IMG/VR virus record: IMGVR_UViG_3300032315_001401
Location: 124,001 to 188,000 of that record
Strand: one strand, 5' to 3'
Source of the DNA: a virus
Length of the DNA: 64,000 nt
The stretch's first letter is position 1, and the number at the start of each line of letters is the position of its first letter. Shown here one piece after another: positions 935 through 13,407 of this stretch. The notes under the pieces were generated by a model, which saw only the letters and a list, made by a program, of their open reading frames with translations, was not told the DNA's origin and did no database searches. Both the position numbers and the translations under genes were made by a program.

Positions 935-1101
935 TCTGCCTCTGAGAGAATGACTTCAGATCCATCCATAGTAAAGCATATCTTAGTATCTTCATACCAA
1001 GAAAGTTCATTCATAATTTGCTCTGGAATTTTGATGAAGTAGTCTCCACTAATTGGATCAACCTCTATGGGCTCAAAAATATTCCCGGAATTTTTTTTCA
1101 T
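931..1101 (-). CDS. AbrB/SpoVT-like small protein
   Basis: A 56-residue protein (starts MKKNSGNIFEPIEV) with the pattern E-V-D-P-x-S-G-D-Y-F-I-x-I-P followed by N-E-L-x-W-Y-E-D-T, matching the swapped-hairpin AbrB/SpoVT layout (strand, IP turn, helix, strand). Such domains are DNA-binding regulators or antitoxins; here there is no neighbouring toxin. I chose the ATG at 1101 over the upstream start at 1182 because the extra 27 residues are low-complexity and AT-rich. The C-terminus of the protein at 22841-23425 carries a similar pattern. Confidence 0.65.
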   Translation of the reverse strand: MKKNSGNIFEPIEVDPISGDYFIKIPEQIMNELSWYEDTKICFTMDGSEVILSEAD

Positions 1102-1322
1102 TTCTATAAAACCTTTTTTCGTTTTTATATAGGGAAAAAAATTTTTATAATGAGAGTAATAATTAGCTCGCTTCCGTAACACTTTGTAGGTTACAGGGAC
1201 CCATCGATTTTATATACGGGGGGGTTATCTTATAACGCGCCGCCGGCGGGGGCGGGCACAATACCCGGACCCCTGCCAAACACGAACGAATGGCACTGCC
1301 CCTCACGAACAACGCAAGGGGG
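1102..1322. other. Intergenic junction between AT-rich and GC-rich DNA
   Basis: No convincing gene. Base composition changes abruptly here: an AT-rich run (1085-1145) is followed by a run of Gs near 1220 and a GC-only stretch (1238-1256) that can form a strong hairpin. An inverted repeat GTAAC/GTTAC lies near 1185-1200. This marks the left end of the GC-rich island. Confidence 0.5.
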
Positions 1323-1613
1323 TCAGGCACCCCGACGCTCCAGAGCAGCAGCGCGGCGATCGTTGCGGTACTGATCACGGGCACGGATCATCACTGCCTC
1401 AAGGTCAGCAACCATCACGCTGCCCAACCCTGTGACGCGGGTGATGGTCAGACCCTTACCCGAACCAACGGCGTGGGACGAACCACCGGCAGGCAGATCA
1501 GAATCACGAACGGAACCAATAGCAGCACCCCGCCCGTGTTGAGAGTTACGGCTGAGGGTCTCGCCCTTACGGGGACCGCGACGGGGCAGGCGGGTGACGG
1601 TGTAAACAGTCAT
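1323..1613 (-). CDS. Hypothetical basic protein of the GC-rich island
   Basis: 96 residues from the ATG at 1613 (MTVYTVTRLPRRGPRKGE). A longer frame opens at 1721, but the downstream ATG is preferred because a -10 box (1640-1645) and the common leader lie between. The protein is rich in Arg and Gly and its C-terminus is a charged helix (RARDQYRNDRRAAALERRGA). It may bind nucleic acid because of its charge, but no family is recognised. Confidence 0.55.
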   Translation of the reverse strand: MTVYTVTRLPRRGPRKGETLSRNSQHGRGAAIGSVRDSDLPAGGSSHAVGSGKGLTITRVTGLGSVMVADLEAVMIRARDQYRNDRRAAALERRGA

Positions 1614-1662
1614 CGGTTCAGGGGGTGTCGGTTGAGAGTATTGTAGCAGGTCGGCGGAGGGG

Positions 1663-1875
1663 TCACCCCCATTGAGTGCTGCGCCACCCGCTGATGGGGC
1701 AGGGGGCAACGTCACCAGCAAGGGTCTCTGAATACTGGGCGGCGAGGGCAGCGGCAGGCACCCCCCAATGAATGTAGGCGGAGGGGCGGGAACCGTTCTT
1801 CAGTTGGTCAGCACGGGAGATCCACTTGACCTGACGGGTCGCGAGGTCAGAGCAGGCAGCAAGGGGGAAACGCAT
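1663..1875 (-). CDS. Hypothetical protein of the GC-rich island
   Basis: 70 residues starting MRFPLAACSDLATRQVKW. The segment KNGSRPSAYIHWGVPAAALA looks folded rather than random, and a -10 box (1903-1908) lies 28 bases before the ATG. It resembles small cyanophage proteins of unknown function. High-GC codon use matches the neighbours and contrasts with most of the window. Confidence 0.55.
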   Translation of the reverse strand: MRFPLAACSDLATRQVKWISRADQLKNGSRPSAYIHWGVPAAALAAQYSETLAGDVAPCPISGWRSTQWG

Positions 1876-1928
1876 CGGGTGTCGGTTGCGGTTGACTTTG
1901 AAATTCTACAGGGTCAGGTGGGCAGGGG

Positions 1929-2117
1929 TCAATACCCCAACCAGACCAAAAACTCACCGGCATCTACAGGTCCGAATTTGGCGGTCGTCCCGTAGTCGGT
2001 GCGGAAGTCATCCCAGAGGGAATGGTCCTTTGCTGCCTGGCAGGCGGTGCTCCAACGAATGCACCCGTTATCATCGGCGCAGTTCAGGAGCAGGGCAGGG
2101 AAGGTGGCGAAGGTCAT
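1929..2117 (-). CDS. Hypothetical small protein
   Basis: 62 residues (MTFATFPALLLNCADDNG). Trp-containing helices (CIRWSTACQAAKDHSLWDDF) suggest a compact domain. It has its own promoter (-10 at 2144-2149). The function is not recognised. Confidence 0.55.
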   Translation of the reverse strand: MTFATFPALLLNCADDNGCIRWSTACQAAKDHSLWDDFRTDYGTTAKFGPVDAGEFLVWLGY

Positions 2118-2165
2118 CGGTCGGTGTCGGTTGACTTGAGAGTATTGTAGCAGGTCGGGAGGGGG

Positions 2166-2357
2166 TCAACCCTCCCACTCATCCTCTGGGGTCAGCACAC
2201 AGACCAACGATTCCAGATGGCAGCAGTAGCTGTAGTCCTTCCCATGATGGCGGACCTTCCACACTGGGGCACCAGGCAGGTTGGCAGTGTGGGGACTCAT
2301 TTCAATTCGCTCCACACCGTAGGGGGCAAGCATGACCATCGCTTCGGAGATGAGCAT
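2166..2357 (-). CDS. Hypothetical small protein
   Basis: 63 residues (MLISEAMVMLAPYGVERIEM). It contains a beta-like segment with paired His and Cys residues (KVRHHGKDYSYCCHLE) and an acidic end. Its own -10 box is at 2386-2391. Function unknown. Confidence 0.55.
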   Translation of the reverse strand: MLISEAMVMLAPYGVERIEMSPHTANLPGAPVWKVRHHGKDYSYCCHLESLVCVLTPEDEWEG

Positions 2358-2404
2358 CGGAGGGGGGGTTGGTTGACTTGAGAGTATTGTAGCAGGTCAG
2401 GGGG

Positions 2405-2590
2405 TCACTGCCCGTCTGTGTAGTCTCCGATGATGACCCCGTTGCAGCGGACCTGGGCGTACCCGTACTCCTCAGACAGGGAGAGGCAGAGGTCCCATGC
2501 GCGGTCCTCATCGGTGGTCGTGTTCTCCCAGGGAGCGGAAGGGCAGATAACGTCGTAGCGGGTCATGAGGTCGTTTGCTTTGGTTCCCAT
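2405..2590 (-). CDS. Hypothetical small acidic protein
   Basis: 61 residues from the ATG at 2590 (MGTKANDLMTRYDV). An internal ATG at 2566 is an alternative start because no clear ribosome-binding site precedes 2590. It contains a Trp/Asp-rich stretch (EDRAWDLCLSLSEEYGYAQ). Probably co-transcribed with the gene at 2636-2776. Function unknown. Confidence 0.5.
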   Translation of the reverse strand: MGTKANDLMTRYDVICPSAPWENTTTDEDRAWDLCLSLSEEYGYAQVRCNGVIIGDYTDGQ

Positions 2591-2635
2591 AGTGTAAACC
2601 CCCCACCCGCGTCAGCAGGCAGGGGGTGTGCGGTT

Positions 2636-2776
2636 TCAGAATTGGACCTCCTGCAGGGTCGGGGCGTCAGCAGGCGCAGCATCCCCAGATTCAGCGGTCA
2701 GGGTCTCCAGAATCTGCAGCAGTTCGGCGCCATTAGCAGCGCGATTCAGCAGGGCAACGGCAAGGTCAGCGGTCAT
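2636..2776 (-). CDS. Conserved small helical protein
   Basis: 46 residues (MTADLAVALLNRAANGAELL), predicted almost fully helical with an Ala-rich, acidic C-terminus. It resembles a short conserved cyanophage protein. The ATG at 2776 follows a -10 box at 2832-2837. Confidence 0.6.
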   Translation of the reverse strand: MTADLAVALLNRAANGAELLQILETLTAESGDAAPADAPTLQEVQF

Positions 2777-2842
2777 GGTTGAAATAGGGTTGAGGTTTGC
2801 TGGGCGTCTTTCAGGGCGCACCCGCTCCCGTATTGTATCAGG

Positions 2843-3004
2843 TCAGCGGGCGAACTGTGCCAGACTGCTGGGAGCGACGTGAGCAGGCGACCCGCAGGAC
2901 CGGTAGAAGTCTACCATGCTCTGTGCTTCCTCCAGGGTGGGGAACCACTGGGAGCGCCACTCGCAAGCGTTGTAGGGGGTCTGGTAGCGGACTTCGATTC
3001 GCAT
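2843..3004 (-). CDS. Hypothetical small protein
   Basis: 53 residues (MRIEVRYQTPYNACEWRSQW), with an N-terminal strand followed by a helix (TLEEAQSMVDFYRSCG), a layout common in phage ferredoxin-like mini-domains. Its promoter is the pair of boxes at 3028-3055. Function unknown. Confidence 0.6.
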   Translation of the reverse strand: MRIEVRYQTPYNACEWRSQWFPTLEEAQSMVDFYRSCGSPAHVAPSSLAQFAR

Positions 3005-3027
3005 GGGGTTGGTTGCGTTGTGAGAGA

Positions 3028-3055
3028 ATTCTAGCAGATCAGGGGCAGGGGTCAA
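3028..3055 (-). promoter_or_regulatory. Sigma70-type promoter within the GC-rich island
   Basis: Minus strand TTGACC (3050-3055), 16-base spacer, TAGAAT (3028-3033), followed by TCTCTCA and the ATG at 3004. It is the clearest complete promoter of the island. Confidence 0.65.
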
Positions 3056-3071
3056 CCTGCCCCGTAGGGGG

Positions 3072-3251
3072 TCAGCGGATCACCTTGACCACTTCGCCCT
3101 TGTGGCGAATCACGATGGAGGTGAAGGAGGGGTGGAACCCCTTGGCGCTGCGAACGGCACCTGCCAGGGAGGTGCAGTGGGTCATGCAGGATGCTGCATC
3201 GGGGGTGGAAGCAGCAACAACGGTGAAGTCGCGGGTCTTGGTGGTTGCCAT
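3072..3251 (-). CDS. Hypothetical small basic protein
   Basis: 59 residues read by hand from the ATG at 3249-3251 to the TGA at 3072-3074 (begins MATTKTRDFTVVAASTPDAA, ends KGEVVKVIR). It has a beta-alpha-beta-like pattern with two Cys residues in the helix. Its own -10 box is at 3276-3281. No family recognised. Confidence 0.5.
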   Translation of the reverse strand: MATTKTRDFTVVAASTPDAASCMTHCTSLAGAVRSAKGFHPSFTSIVIRHKGEVVKVIR

Positions 3252-3317
3252 GGGGTGGGGTTGTGAACTGAGAGAATTCTAGCAGGTCAGGGGGTCGGGT
3301 GTGACCCCCCAGCGGGT

Positions 3318-3578
3318 TTAGAAGTCGAACACGTCGCCGTTGATTTCAGCGCGGTTGACTTTAGGGTCGTCCCACTTCACACCGTCCGGGGTCTCTTTGG
3401 TGCCAAATTGATAGAATGCCTCCAGCAGTTCTTCATAGCAGCAGACATCATTTTCCTGAATGAAGTTATGAATGCTCTCATCATTCTCAATCCAGAGCAC
3501 AACATTCCAGGTCTCATAATTGGTCCAACCGTTGTAGGTTTGGTCGGTGAGGCAGGTCTGGTAGGTAGTGGCAGGCAT
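3318..3578 (-). CDS. DUF7249-like phage protein
   Basis: 86 residues carrying the motif YNGWTNYETWNVVLWIEND near residues 15-33, the signature of a widespread small phage family (NYETWN proteins, DUF7249). The acidic C-terminus ends in DVFDF. Function unknown; these genes usually occur among early host-takeover genes, and this one has an own promoter at 3604-3609. Confidence 0.75.
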   Translation of the reverse strand: MPATTYQTCLTDQTYNGWTNYETWNVVLWIENDESIHNFIQENDVCCYEELLEAFYQFGTKETPDGVKWDDPKVNRAEINGDVFDF

Positions 3579-3640
3579 TGGTTTGTCTGTGGTTGACTTG
3601 TTAATTGTAAGGGGTCAGGTGGGGGGTTGGTGCCCCCCTT

Positions 3641-3664
3641 GTGCCAGTTCGTCAGGCGGCACAC
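3641..3664 (-). repeat. Boundary palindrome, copy 1
   Basis: Arms GTGCCAG...GGCAC. The TGA stop of the gene at 3652 lies inside the element. Confidence 0.8.
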
Positions 3665-3837
3665 AGGGCAGAGTCCATGCAGACCTCGCGGGTCTCCACC
3701 AGCACGTAGTCTACTGCAATCTGCTGCTCCAGCTCATGAGCGTAGGCGTCAGCAGCAGAGCGGCAATCGAACAGGCGAAGGGTGCTAAAGTCCTGCCCTT
3801 CATAGTCGGCACCAGCGATGACAGCGTAGACTTGCAT
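3652..3837 (-). CDS. Conserved cyanophage hypothetical protein
   Basis: 61 residues (MQVYAVIAGADYEGQDFST) with a strand, an acidic loop, a strand (LRLFDC) and a helix of Ala and Glu (SAADAYAHELEQQ). It resembles small cyanophage proteins. The last codons (CAA and stop) are part of boundary palindrome 1. Confidence 0.65.
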   Translation of the reverse strand: MQVYAVIAGADYEGQDFSTLRLFDCRSAADAYAHELEQQIAVDYVLVETREVCMDSALCAA

Positions 3838-3901
3838 GGGTTGCTCCGTTTGGTTGACTTGTTAATTGTAAAGGGTCAGGGTGGGGTCTGTGGGGTGGTA
3901 G

Positions 3902-3927
3902 TGTGCCACCTTATCAACTGGCACACT
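3902..3927 (-). repeat. Boundary palindrome, copy 2
   Basis: A near-perfect copy: AGTGTGCCAGTT, a short loop and GGTGGCACA on the minus strand. It encodes the last residues (C-A-S) and the TGA of the ligase-like gene. Confidence 0.85.
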
Positions 3928-4810
3928 GGAAGCGCCCGCTGTTGAAATTATGGTATGAAAAGACCTCACGGTTCACCAGTTTGAACATACCAAACTCATT
4001 GGTCATGACATAACCTTCAGCATCAATCCTCTCCTGCCCGATGTAAGCGGCAGGACCATCATTGCGGCACAGATAGAGACAATCATCTTTGATCGACTTT
4101 ACCAGTGCCCACAATCCAAGCAGGTTAGGATCGCAGTCGAATTCAGTATTCACAACAGGACGATTCTCACGAATGCAGGCATTCAGTTGTTGCTTGATCT
4201 TTGCTGCCTCTTTATCAGTCACAAACTTCACCGCAAGTGCCATCACCCGTGCAAACTTGCAGACCTCTTCAACATCAGCGAACGATTCTTGCCCGTGCTG
4301 GATGTATGCTTGCGGTTTCACAAATTTGCAGTAGTGTGTATCAGTGATGATAAAGTTCATCGGGTGAGCAACAGCATCACGCAAATCATTCTCTGCCACG
4401 TAGACAGTGTGAGGGGCAACAATAATCTCCTGATAGACTACTTCAGGAAACTTGTAAGTGATCGTGTTGGGAGTATACTCATCGCTATCACCAAACCCAA
4501 TAAAATCACCTTGAATGATACCATTTGTGCGAGGAAGATAATCAAAGCAAGCGTGAAGAATACGCGCAACTTCACCCTGATAGAATGCATCAATCTCTTC
4601 ATGATTGTGAGCGATACGAATCTTTTTCTTGTTAAAGACCGCTTTGGTTCCTACAAAGAACTCACCGCAGGCAGGGTCAATACCCCAGACAATTGCAGGG
4701 GCACCATCAATCTTAACGCTCAAGTTACCAGGATTGACGAACCAATCCAGAACAGAAAGGTCACCCGTGAGGATAGAATCTTCGGGGTGCTCAAGGTGGG
4801 TGTTTTTCAT
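3914..4810 (-). CDS. RNA/DNA ligase-like nucleotidyltransferase
   Basis: 298 residues. VKIDGAPA (lysine at residue 33) matches motif I (KxDG) of the covalent nucleotidyltransferase superfamily, where the lysine is adenylated. GDFIGFG near 105 fits motif III, DAEGYVM (about 263-269) fits motif IV, and MFKLVNR (about 274-280) fits motif V. The set and order are those of ATP-dependent RNA or DNA ligases, so it may seal nicked nucleic acid, for example tRNA cut by a host defence. The C-terminal OB-fold of DNA ligases is absent, so RNA ligase or a minimal ligase is more likely. It is transcribed from its own -10 at 4817-4822. Confidence 0.65.
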   Translation of the reverse strand: MKNTHLEHPEDSILTGDLSVLDWFVNPGNLSVKIDGAPAIVWGIDPACGEFFVGTKAVFNKKKIRIAHNHEEIDAFYQGEVARILHACFDYLPRTNGIIQGDFIGFGDSDEYTPNTITYKFPEVVYQEIIVAPHTVYVAENDLRDAVAHPMNFIITDTHYCKFVKPQAYIQHGQESFADVEEVCKFARVMALAVKFVTDKEAAKIKQQLNACIRENRPVVNTEFDCDPNLLGLWALVKSIKDDCLYLCRNDGPAAYIGQERIDAEGYVMTNEFGMFKLVNREVFSYHNFNSGRFQCAS

Positions 4811-7286: not shown

Positions 7287-7427
7287 TTATGCATAATGCC
7301 TGTATGCTAGGTCCTGATAATCATGTGTGTCTCGTGCATAATCATCATCTAGATCTAGTGTATAATGCTCATCTAGATCCGCGTAATCGTTCGTGTATGT
7401 GTAGTCGAAATCGTAATCGTCGTACAT
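7287..7427 (-). CDS. Tyr/Asp-rich conserved cyanophage mini-protein
   Basis: 46 residues (MYDDYDFDYTYTNDYADLDE, ending DLAYRHYA) with an extreme bias to Tyr and Asp. I chose the ATG at 7427 because it resembles a cyanophage family with this start and because the -10 at 7459-7464 lies just upstream; a longer frame begins at 7499. The composition (DNA-mimic-like acidity) could fit an inhibitor of a DNA-binding protein, which is speculation. Confidence 0.65.
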   Translation of the reverse strand: MYDDYDFDYTYTNDYADLDEHYTLDLDDDYARDTHDYQDLAYRHYA

Positions 7428-7429
7428 AG

Positions 7430-7645
7430 CTCGTCGAGATCGTGTGAGTGACTTGTGTATTATAGCATAGAGCTCGACGAGATTGCAATAGGTATGCACA
7501 TATCTCGACGAGATTCGTATGGTAGTATATATGAATCTAGATGCTTCTAGATGGGTCTCGACTAGATTATATGAGAATCTCGTAACATAATGCCTCGTCG
7601 AGATTCTATCATACTTTCATAAGAATGTCAAGTCTCGTCTAGATT
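7430..7645. repeat. Array of TCTCGACGAGA-like palindromes
   Basis: Copies at 7430-7440, 7473-7484, 7503-7515, 7556-7567, 7593-7605 and 7633-7645, plus two TCTAGAT half-variants at 7536-7552. Spacing is about 30-53 bases. The copy at 7473-7484 sits in the spacer of the promoter at 7459-7488, so at least that one could be an operator. Confidence 0.75.
7459..7488 (-). promoter_or_regulatory. Promoter of the Tyr/Asp-rich gene with an operator-like palindrome
   Basis: Minus strand TTGCAA (7483-7488), 18-base spacer containing TCTCGTCGAG, then TATAAT (7459-7464). The ATG is at 7427. Confidence 0.6.
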
Positions 7646-7694
7646 TTATGAGGGTCTGTGAATTTTTATGGGGGCGGGGGTTGACAAACTGCGA

Positions 7695-7726
7695 GTCTTA
7701 TGCTACGCTCGCTTAGCTCACAAGAC
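7695..7726. other. Strong interrupted hairpin
   Basis: GTCTT at 7695 pairs with AAGAC at 7726 and GCTA at 7702 with TAGC at 7717, enclosing the loop CGCTCGCT. It separates the palindrome array from the DnaA-box part and could be a structured origin element or a small RNA hairpin. Confidence 0.5.
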
Positions 7727-7802
7727 CTGGAGGGGTTTATAAGCATTTAAGACACAAAAACCCGGACACATTTATAAGCACTTATAAGCATTTAAGACAA
7801 AG

Positions 7803-7843
7803 TTTTCCACACAAATACAATACTTTTCCACAGGTTTTCCACA
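7803..7843 (+). promoter_or_regulatory. Three TTTTCCACA (DnaA-box-like) sites
   Basis: Perfect copies at 7803-7811, 7824-7832 and 7835-7843, all in the same orientation. The start-to-start distances of 21 and 11 bases put them on the same face of the helix. Confidence 0.7.
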
Positions 7844-7892
7844 ACTAAACAAAATACACTTATATATTTTTTAATACATTTTTTTAATTAAT

Positions 7893-8081
7893 TTAACCTT
7901 TTTTATCCTTTCTTTCTTGTGCTGCTGTCTGTGCTAAATGAATATTTGTATGAAGACGTTGTAGATTTGCATAACGATTATGCTGACGTGTGATAACAGA
8001 GTTTGCTTTAATTCTTGCAGCATTAACATTTGACTGCTGTGATGTAGGAATCTGTTCCATGAATTGAAAGAACGTCTTCAT
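7893..8081 (-). CDS. Hypothetical basic protein
   Basis: 62 residues (MKTFFQFMEQIPTSQQSNVN), basic and helical, with a Lys/Asp-rich tail (AAQERKDKKG). MKTF-x-QFMEQ starts recur in cyanophage proteins. It overlaps the last 59 bases of the upstream gene in another frame. The longer frame to 8129 is not used because the QFMEQ-type start is more typical. The AT-rich origin candidate begins right after its stop. Confidence 0.55.
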   Translation of the reverse strand: MKTFFQFMEQIPTSQQSNVNAARIKANSVITRQHNRYANLQRLHTNIHLAQTAAQERKDKKG

Positions 8082-8283
8082 TGCTATACTTAAGACTGTA
8101 ATGATATTTAGAATCTGGTTGATTATCATTCCAATGTCTTACCACTCCTGCAATAATAAAAGCATTAGTAATCAAATAAGATGCAAAGATGAATGTTCGA
8201 ATCAATGCTATCTTATCTGACTCCTTATTACATTTGGATGCTTTCTCTCCTAATGCTTTTGCCCACAGTCTCCACAACTTCAT
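8023..8283 (-). CDS. Conserved cyanophage membrane-anchored protein
   Basis: 86 residues (MKLWRLWAKALGEKASKCNK). The N-terminus is a charged amphipathic helix; residues about 27-47 (LIRTFIFASYLITNAFIIAG) form one membrane segment, followed by VVRHWND. The MKLWRLWA...IRTFIF...VVRHWN pattern is one I associate with cyanomyoviruses. Function unknown. ATGA overlap with the upstream gene. Confidence 0.7.
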   Translation of the reverse strand: MKLWRLWAKALGEKASKCNKESDKIALIRTFIFASYLITNAFIIAGVVRHWNDNQPDSKYHYSLKYSNEDVLSIHGTDSYITAVKC

Positions 8284-12199: not shown

Positions 12200-12336
12200 G
12201 GAAGTTGTGGGTGATTCATTTCTACTGTAGTCTTTTGAAGATTAAACATTGCACCGTCAAGAACTTTGGCAATAGGACCAAACCCAACAGTTGCAGCGAT
12301 AATCCCAAAAATCACACCAGAAATGAAGTTAAACAT
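12184..12336 (-). CDS. Membrane mini-protein
   Basis: 50 residues (MFNFISGVIFGIIAATVGFG) with a hydrophobic N-terminal segment and a Pro-rich end (HPQLPPPVQ). TGATG overlap with the ParB-like gene upstream. Function unknown. Confidence 0.6.
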   Translation of the reverse strand: MFNFISGVIFGIIAATVGFGPIAKVLDGAMFNLQKTTVEMNHPQLPPPVQ

Positions 12337-13337
12337 CACTGATTCAAAGAAACAACACCACCATCAGGATCTACATCCACAATTTGAGAAGGACGAACAC
12401 CAAACTCAAAAGGAGTCCAGTTACGATCTTCTTTCAATTTGAGAGCGCAAAGTTTTACAGCATCCCACAACTCCATCAATTCATCTTTTGTAGAATCAAT
12501 GATTTCAGTTGCCTTGTCTGCTTTTTTGCCACTAGGAATATACAAGTGAACTTTAGATCTCCTACCTTCCGCAACATCTTTCAAAATGTGGGAGAAATTG
12601 CGAGGAACATATGTTCCATTCGGTTCAGCACAAATAATGCGTCCAGCAAAACCTTCTTCATCAATTTTACCACCAGAGGTATATCCTTCAGCAGCAAGAT
12701 ATTCTTCTGCCTCATTACAAGTAAAGGTGCGAAGACTTTTATCTGGATAGGATTTACTGTGAATTTTCTTAACAATTCCAGTCACTTTTTTCTGTTCAAA
12801 AGTATGAGGAATAGAGTTCACCCAATCACGAATTTCATCTTTTGAAACAAGATGATCTTGACGATTGACCCAATTAAGACCACGAGTCACAAAATCTTCA
12901 TCTGTAGAAGATTTACTTGCAGGGTGACTATTTGCGCCCAGACCAATCTCATCAAAAAGATCTTCCAGAGTATAACCGTCGTTAATTTCATAGACATCAA
13001 ATGCCCAAGCAACTTGTCCACGACGGGTCAGGGCACGAAAACGAGTGAAACCATCAATCAGTTTCAAAACTCCTTCAGCATAAGTAACAATAGGGGGAAG
13101 TTGATCGTAACGAATACCACACTCAAATTCACCATACAGGTTTTCCGTGTTGATATTGTCAGTGCCACCAGAACGAGCACGATTTTTGATTGTCTTACCA
13201 CCAACATCAATATTGGACAGATCTTCTACAATGGTAGTTTTGTAGGTTCCAGTGCGAAACTTCCTTCGTTTTTCCACAGAAGGAAGACGATTTACGTCAG
13301 GAACTTCACAAATGCTAATAGGGGTGTGTGTAGACAT
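12336..13337 (-). CDS. ParB/sulfiredoxin-fold-like protein
   Basis: 333 residues from the ATG at 13337 (MSTHTPISICEVPDVNRLPS). The segment VLKLIDGFTRFRAL (about 90-103) matches the D-G-x-x-R-x-x-A box of the ParB N-terminal nuclease/CTPase fold, where Arg contacts nucleotide. The rest is helical and may bind DNA. In phages such proteins often sit beside DNA methyltransferases, as here (13456-14124), so a role in DNA modification or partition-like binding is plausible but unproven. The longer frame to 13385 is rejected because the promoter at 13408-13436 and the leader favour 13337. Confidence 0.65.
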   Translation of the reverse strand: MSTHTPISICEVPDVNRLPSVEKRRKFRTGTYKTTIVEDLSNIDVGGKTIKNRARSGGTDNINTENLYGEFECGIRYDQLPPIVTYAEGVLKLIDGFTRFRALTRRGQVAWAFDVYEINDGYTLEDLFDEIGLGANSHPASKSSTDEDFVTRGLNWVNRQDHLVSKDEIRDWVNSIPHTFEQKKVTGIVKKIHSKSYPDKSLRTFTCNEAEEYLAAEGYTSGGKIDEEGFAGRIICAEPNGTYVPRNFSHILKDVAEGRRSKVHLYIPSGKKADKATEIIDSTKDELMELWDAVKLCALKLKEDRNWTPFEFGVRPSQIVDVDPDGGVVSLNQ

Positions 13338-13407
13338 AATAAGTAATAAAATGCAAACTGCAGGATTAGATTGAGTGTTTGGCAAATTGCCTTTTCAATC
13401 TCCAAGT

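Follow-up and report, generated by a model that had tools for sequence, protein, structure and literature searches.

Does a T4-like cyanophage start its replication at a site that carries boxes for the DnaA protein of its host? An initial annotation had proposed a candidate origin of this kind in a short noncoding gap of the window, by which we mean the whole 64,000-base stretch of DNA analyzed here (positions 124001-188000 of a viral record 188,017 bases long). In BLAST searches, the nearest named phage was S-SRM01, and the window grouped with freshwater T4-like cyanomyoviruses. The gap lies between the ATG of a 46-amino-acid open reading frame (ORF) and the stop codon of a second ORF, both on the minus strand, and no convincing gene was found within it. 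The features of the locus, referred to here as the element, and of its flanks are listed below in window coordinates.

7287..7427, minus strand: 46-amino-acid ORF, acidic and tyrosine rich (MYDDYDFDYTY...), the first gene leftward of the element
7430..7602, no strand: CTCGWCGAG palindrome array, perfect at 7430, 7473, 7504, and 7594, degenerate at 7557 and 7634
7459..7488, minus strand: leftward promoter PL2, TTGCAA-18-TATAAT, whose -10 is extended and whose spacer contains a CTCGWCGAG palindrome
7603..7631, minus strand: leftward promoter PL1, TTGACA-17-TAGAAT, whose -10 is likewise extended and whose start point coincides with a palindrome
7681..7709, plus strand: rightward promoter PR, TTGACA-17-TACGCT, with TG before the -10; read from the sequence and conserved in 100 distinct viral loci
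7738..7799, plus strand: short direct repeats TATAAGCA / TTTAAGACA, iteron-like
7803..7811, plus strand: DnaA-type box 1, TTTTCCACA, perfect
7824..7832, plus strand: DnaA-type box 2, TTTTCCACA, perfect
7835..7843, plus strand: DnaA-type box 3, TTTTCCACA, perfect
7846..7905, plus strand: A+T-rich block, candidate unwinding element with the conserved core TATATnTTTTTTAATAnnTTTTT, overlapping the 3' end of the ORF at 7893-8129
7893..8129, minus strand: 78-amino-acid ORF on the right side of the element, sharing its direction with all neighbors

Neither Pfam nor PHROG gave a known function for the ORFs adjoining the element, and the 46-amino-acid ORF had no match in either. Farther to the right, two N6/N4 DNA methyltransferase genes (PF01555; 13456-14124 and 15089-15877) lie near one another, 5.5 to 8 kb from the element, and a ParB-like assignment for the ORF at 12336-13385 was dropped for want of Pfam support. 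To the left, an island at 1001-4300 is rich in G+C (56%, the genome average being 36%), contains small ORFs, and locally reverses the GC skew; it was possibly acquired recently. A repeated intergenic element, TGTGACA-N(10-13)-TGGCACAA, is found upstream of small genes at 3645, 4858, 5546, 5870, 6843, and 7109 on the minus strand. Its copies are oriented in the direction of the genes (genome-wide, TGGCACAA occurs 15 times on the minus strand and once on the plus strand), and marine phages have TGTGACA/TGGCAC elements of a similar kind next to the candidate origin.

The densest box cluster of the genome

Three perfect copies of TTTTCCACA are present on the plus strand at 7803, 7824, and 7835, spaced by 21 and 11 bases, and their description as the cyanobacterial form of the DnaA box agrees with the published box (PMC4674748). 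The 188,017-base record contains eight copies in total, three of which fall inside these 41 bases. Markov simulation gave an expectation of about 5 copies per genome, a triple this tight in 0 of 60 simulations, and a pair in 1 of 60. When the genome of the window was scored in 150-base segments, the box cluster reached 9 and every other segment at most 4; no equal density of TTTTCCACA exists elsewhere, and 7803-7843 is the densest cluster in 188 kb.

The boxes are also spaced as in cyanobacterial chromosomes. The start-to-start spacings of TTTTCCACA in cyanobacterial genomes are mainly 11, 12, 20, 21, and 22 bases, with one cluster located in a dnaA-dnaN gap and a second next to dnaA, and those in phages are 9, 11, 12, 19, 20, and 21 bases, with 39 found once. 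This agreement in spacing and orientation suggests that the phage copies are DnaA boxes set out like those of the host. Paired TTTTCCACA is missing from most small (1.8- to 2.3-Mb) genomes of the cyanobacterial phylum.

The direct repeats and the A+T-rich stretch of the initial annotation are likewise real. TATAAGCA occurs at 7738, 7773, and 7783 and TTTAAGACA at 7746 and 7791, and the A+T-rich block at 7846-7905 ranks within the lowest 0.1% of the genome's 60-mers for stability; in five relatives, the block ranks only within the lowest 0.7 to 3%. The repeat arrays of relatives lie downstream of the promoter described below and have periods of 10, 11, 20, and 21 bases, mainly 10 to 12 and 20 to 21, with repeat numbers that differ widely. 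Evenly spaced direct repeats, as in an iteron origin, are a feature of the relatives, and the window holds only a partial array. A phasing near 10.5 bases is seen separately in the spacings of the boxes, of the TATAAG repeats, and of the palindromes (approximate Rayleigh P values of 3e-7, 7e-6, and 6e-10, respectively). The element combines two marks of a DnaA-dependent origin, a cluster of host-type 9-mers and an A+T-rich unwinding element adjoining it. The order of the two varies, the boxes preceding the block in the window and following it in S-PM2, Syn1, S-CAM1, and others.

A conserved promoter pointing against the genes

The first account of the region lacked PR, a σ70-type promoter that points against all neighboring genes. 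We searched viral contigs with the promoter pattern alone and retrieved at least 120 stretches, of which 100 were distinct. Across these loci, the PR hexamers, spacer, and start region are strongly conserved (some positions being fixed by the search pattern), and in 89 of the 100 the longer ORFs within 3.5 kb oppose the promoter. The boxes played no part in the choice of these loci, so counting TTTTCCACA near the promoter is not circular. Up to 400 bases from the promoter there are 54 copies, 51 in its direction and 3 reversed (0.66/kb and 0.04/kb, respectively), and the remaining 755 kb hold 20 (0.019/kb), which amounts to a 35-fold enrichment near the promoter. The forward copies are confined to its downstream side, at +93 to +326.

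An element shared by cyanophages, with an exchangeable module

The element is conserved and unannotated in more than 100 viral contigs and more than 50 named cyanophage records, including S-PM2, Syn1, S-RIM44, S-CAM1, S-RSM4, and P-SSM2. Freshwater and marine phages alike show its parts, namely, the counter-gene σ70-type promoter, usually short repeats, the A+T-rich block, and a box module that can be exchanged. With the S-PM2 element as the query, BLAST found 58 phage records, at a single place in each and nearly always without annotation. Paired TTTTCCACA occurs in 5 of 15 named genomes (S-PM2, S-RIM44, Syn1, DSL-LC03, and S-CREM1), and the reversed pair pattern has no match in the same 15. 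The pairs lie downstream of a TTGACA promoter and an A+T-rich block in S-PM2, S-RIM44, Syn1, and S-CREM1; DSL-LC03 has the same order on the minus strand, with both module types present, and DSL-LC02 has boxes and A+T block in a looser version. In the window phage, S-PM2, Syn1, S-CREM1, DSL-LC02, and DSL-LC03, the element is the densest TTTTCCACA cluster of the genome, and in 7 of 7 further isolates all flanking genes lie on the strand opposite the promoter.

Two of these genomes show additional features. In DSL-LC03 (OR003938.1, 80123-80567; loci L307/L309), the two box modules flank one A+T block, and a second cluster of four TTTTCCACA boxes lies about 300 bases away. In S-PM2 (NC_006820.1, 19177-19333), the DnaA-box cluster is overlapped by two annotated tRNAs, tRNA-Asn and tRNA-Leu, and the tRNA-Leu annotation may be doubtful.

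Since P-SSM2 has the element and lacks TTTTCCACA, the DnaA boxes are not universal. The exact box is also absent from the S-WAM2 and Bellamy genomes, and the paired form is missing from the Prochlorococcus phages P-SSM2 and P-SSM5. A pair of TTTCCACA at 191314 in P-TIM68 was dismissed, as it lies inside psbD. One position in the element is occupied either by TTTTCCACA boxes or by TTGATTCTCAATAA..TTATTGAGAA, and the GGGTAGTATCC motif of other phages is probably a third module type: ACG-2014e has it at the module position, and P-SSM2 and P-TIM68 have similar motifs. S-RIM32, S-CAM1, S-CAM3, and S-H38 show an A+T block followed by TTTTCCACA boxes, and S-RSM4 and S-H9-1 have TTGATTCTCAATA..TTATTGAGAA where S-CAM1 and S-RIM32 have the boxes. 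Of 71 nonredundant promoter-defined loci, 16 are of the TTTTCCACA type, 39 of the TTCTCAA type, and 16 of neither. Both types occur among close relatives of the window phage, with three boxes in a sibling (L003) and the TTCTCAA type in three others (L004, L007, and L009). The module is exchanged as a unit while the promoter and the A+T block stay, and its type may follow the DnaA box usage of the host.

In the alternative TTGATTCTCAATAA..TTATTGAGAA module, the arms change without compensation and the gap of 14 to 16 bases is kept, suggesting a protein site and not an RNA hairpin. Among 11.3 million bacterial contigs, the form TTGATTCTCA..TTATTGAGAA was found in only 7, of which 6 were cyanobacterial, and we therefore rejected it as a general chromosomal site. 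The cyanobacterial loci are L401, L402, L404, and L406 (Acaryochloris MAG) and L403 and L405 (Nostoc).

Palindromes and GC skew

The palindrome array was correctly recognized, as all four CTCGWCGAG copies of the 188 kb fall at 7430-7602, and its role had to be revised. The palindromes occupy fixed positions on two conserved leftward promoters, in the spacer, at the start point, or about 22 to 24 bases past the -10, and we rejected origin boxes as their main reading. On the upstream side of the 71 loci, there are 66 minus-strand and 7 plus-strand promoters, with a palindrome nearby, its position fixed relative to the promoters, in 39 loci. The preferred interpretation is that the palindromes are operators for the leftward early promoters; they would belong to a regulator that controls both. 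Relatives also encode the 46-amino-acid ORF, overlapped by the same palindromes; their versions are partly encoded by them (DLDE repeats), so that the operator-like sites reach into coding sequence.

The GC-skew inflection that had been suggested as a check is absent. The skew declines almost steadily across the site in the genome of the window, and no inflection coincides with the element in any of six box-carrying genomes (0/6). Because skew here follows the gene strand, a bias that dominates the signal, it is uninformative at the site, and we discarded it as origin evidence.

A candidate origin and its alternatives

We put at roughly 0.62 the probability that this region is the early replication origin, or a main one, of this T4-like cyanophage. 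The best reading of the sequence is a transcription-primed origin similar to oriF and oriE of T4, with an initiator-binding module that would here serve host DnaA. Comparison lends the initial proposal good support through a clustering of boxes unique in the genome, their recurrence at one position in independent phages, and their host-like spacing, and promoter, repeats, and A+T block are conserved together with the boxes. It was incomplete in that PR was missed and the DnaA boxes are one of several interchangeable modules, and the palindromes do not belong to the origin proper.

In the proposed mechanism, transcription by unmodified host RNA polymerase would begin at PR (7681-7709) and run counter to the genes, giving an untranslated RNA. 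This transcript would extend across the short repeats and boxes and enter the A+T-rich block, in which the helix is easy to open. By binding the three phased TTTTCCACA boxes, host DnaA may help to open this block or hold it open, may stop the PR transcript there, or both, and either the RNA or the open bubble would then allow the phage gp41/gp61 primosome and gp43 polymerase to begin synthesis. We infer DnaA binding, primer formation, and replication start at the element. A gp41-type helicase was found in all 11 phage genomes tested and a DnaA gene in none (0/11); the gp59 loader was detectable in 7 of the 11, the exceptions being the window record, S-PM2, Syn1, and S-WAM2.

As a more tentative generalization, to which we give slightly less than even odds, T4-like cyanophages would share one origin made of a fixed transcription-primed core and a swappable initiator-binding cassette. 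The core would be the counter-gene promoter and the A+T-rich block; DnaA boxes would be one cassette, with at least one other (TTGATTCTCAATAA..TTATTGAGAA) and probably two, for different initiators.

Regulation at this locus is very likely, given three conserved σ70-type promoters and operator-like palindromes. The region could be a DnaA-controlled transcription region and not an origin, with DnaA blocking or stopping the rightward transcript, a regulatory or antisense RNA, or tuning early transcription to the replication state of the host. Pairs of TTTTCCACA spaced by 11 or 21 bases at several separate places per cyanobacterial genome, presumably including regulatory sites, fit this explanation. 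By itself, however, it accounts neither for the conserved A+T block and the phased repeats downstream of PR nor for the exchange of the box module as a unit next to a constant promoter and A+T block, and we regard it as unlikely.

The boxes might instead act as a decoy that titrates host DnaA and so stops replication of the host chromosome. They are perfect, host type, and spaced as in the host, and although few per phage genome, they multiply during infection. A decoy would, however, need neither the tie of a handful of boxes to one promoter/A+T element nor the swapping in of different motifs at the same place by other phages, which makes this explanation very improbable. We give still less credence to a structured noncoding RNA gene transcribed from PR, for which one could cite that the promoter is strong and conserved and that no reading frame follows it. 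Rfam returned no match even at E values up to 1, the 185-nucleotide transcript folds no better than shuffled sequences (z = -0.53), repeat number varies widely between relatives, and changes in the arms of the alternative module are not compensated. We therefore rejected the RNA gene, which the initial annotation had named as something that might explain the region. Chance clustering of a short A/T-rich 9-mer, expected in about five copies per genome anyway, is refuted by the absence of any such 41-base triple in the 60 simulations, the 35-fold enrichment that independent phages share at this place, and the reversed-pattern controls without matches in 15 genomes.

T4-like cyanophages are among the commonest viruses of lakes and oceans. 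If the preferred reading of the element as a transcription-primed origin is true, it would supply a precise, testable origin in the model isolates S-PM2, Syn1, and S-CAM1. A T4-like phage would borrow the initiator DnaA of its host, initiator sites would be traded as cassettes at a fixed place, phage DNA synthesis would be linked to the host cell cycle, and the modules would form a natural set for matching initiator to host.

Comparison with known origins

In the literature searched, which lay outside most subscription journals, we found no report of DnaA boxes in a cyanophage and no origin sequence for T4-like cyanophages. A single theta origin had been predicted earlier for cyanophage Syn9, as cited in a review (PMC2984593). 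Our reading shares with this prediction the claim of one origin for a T4-like cyanomyovirus and differs in that the review, where it cites the prediction, names no sequence element (PMC2984593).

Like the cyanobacterial oriC in the dnaA-dnaN region, the element has perfect TTTTCCACA boxes that are spaced by 11 and 21 bases and adjoin A+T-rich DNA (PMC4674748). Unlike oriC, it has no adjoining dnaA or dnaN and is tied to a strong promoter, and relatives of the phage replace the boxes by other motifs.

T4 uses several origins, and DnaA goes unmentioned in the review that describes them (PMC3016281). In its oriF and oriG, a promoter is followed by an A+T-rich unwinding element, and the transcript primes leading-strand synthesis (PMC3016281). 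The cyanophage element has the same layout, PR at 7681-7709 followed by the block at 7846-7905, and this layout is conserved in the 100 loci and in marine isolates. Shared with oriF/oriG are a σ70-type promoter with an A+T-rich unwinding element about 100 to 200 bp downstream, a T4-like phage with a gp41-type helicase, and a transcript not needed as mRNA. The promoters differ, in that PR, σ70-like with a TTGACA -35, looks like an early host-type promoter and not a MotA-type middle promoter; cyanomyoviruses have been reported to lack motA (PMC2984593). The cyanophage element also adds phased short repeats and host-type DnaA boxes. T4 oriE combines an early promoter with 12-nucleotide repeats (PMC3016281), and the candidate origin resembles it in having an early-type promoter near a cluster of evenly spaced direct repeats. 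It differs from oriE in the periods of these repeats, 10 to 11 and 20 to 21 bases, and in the DnaA boxes that follow them.
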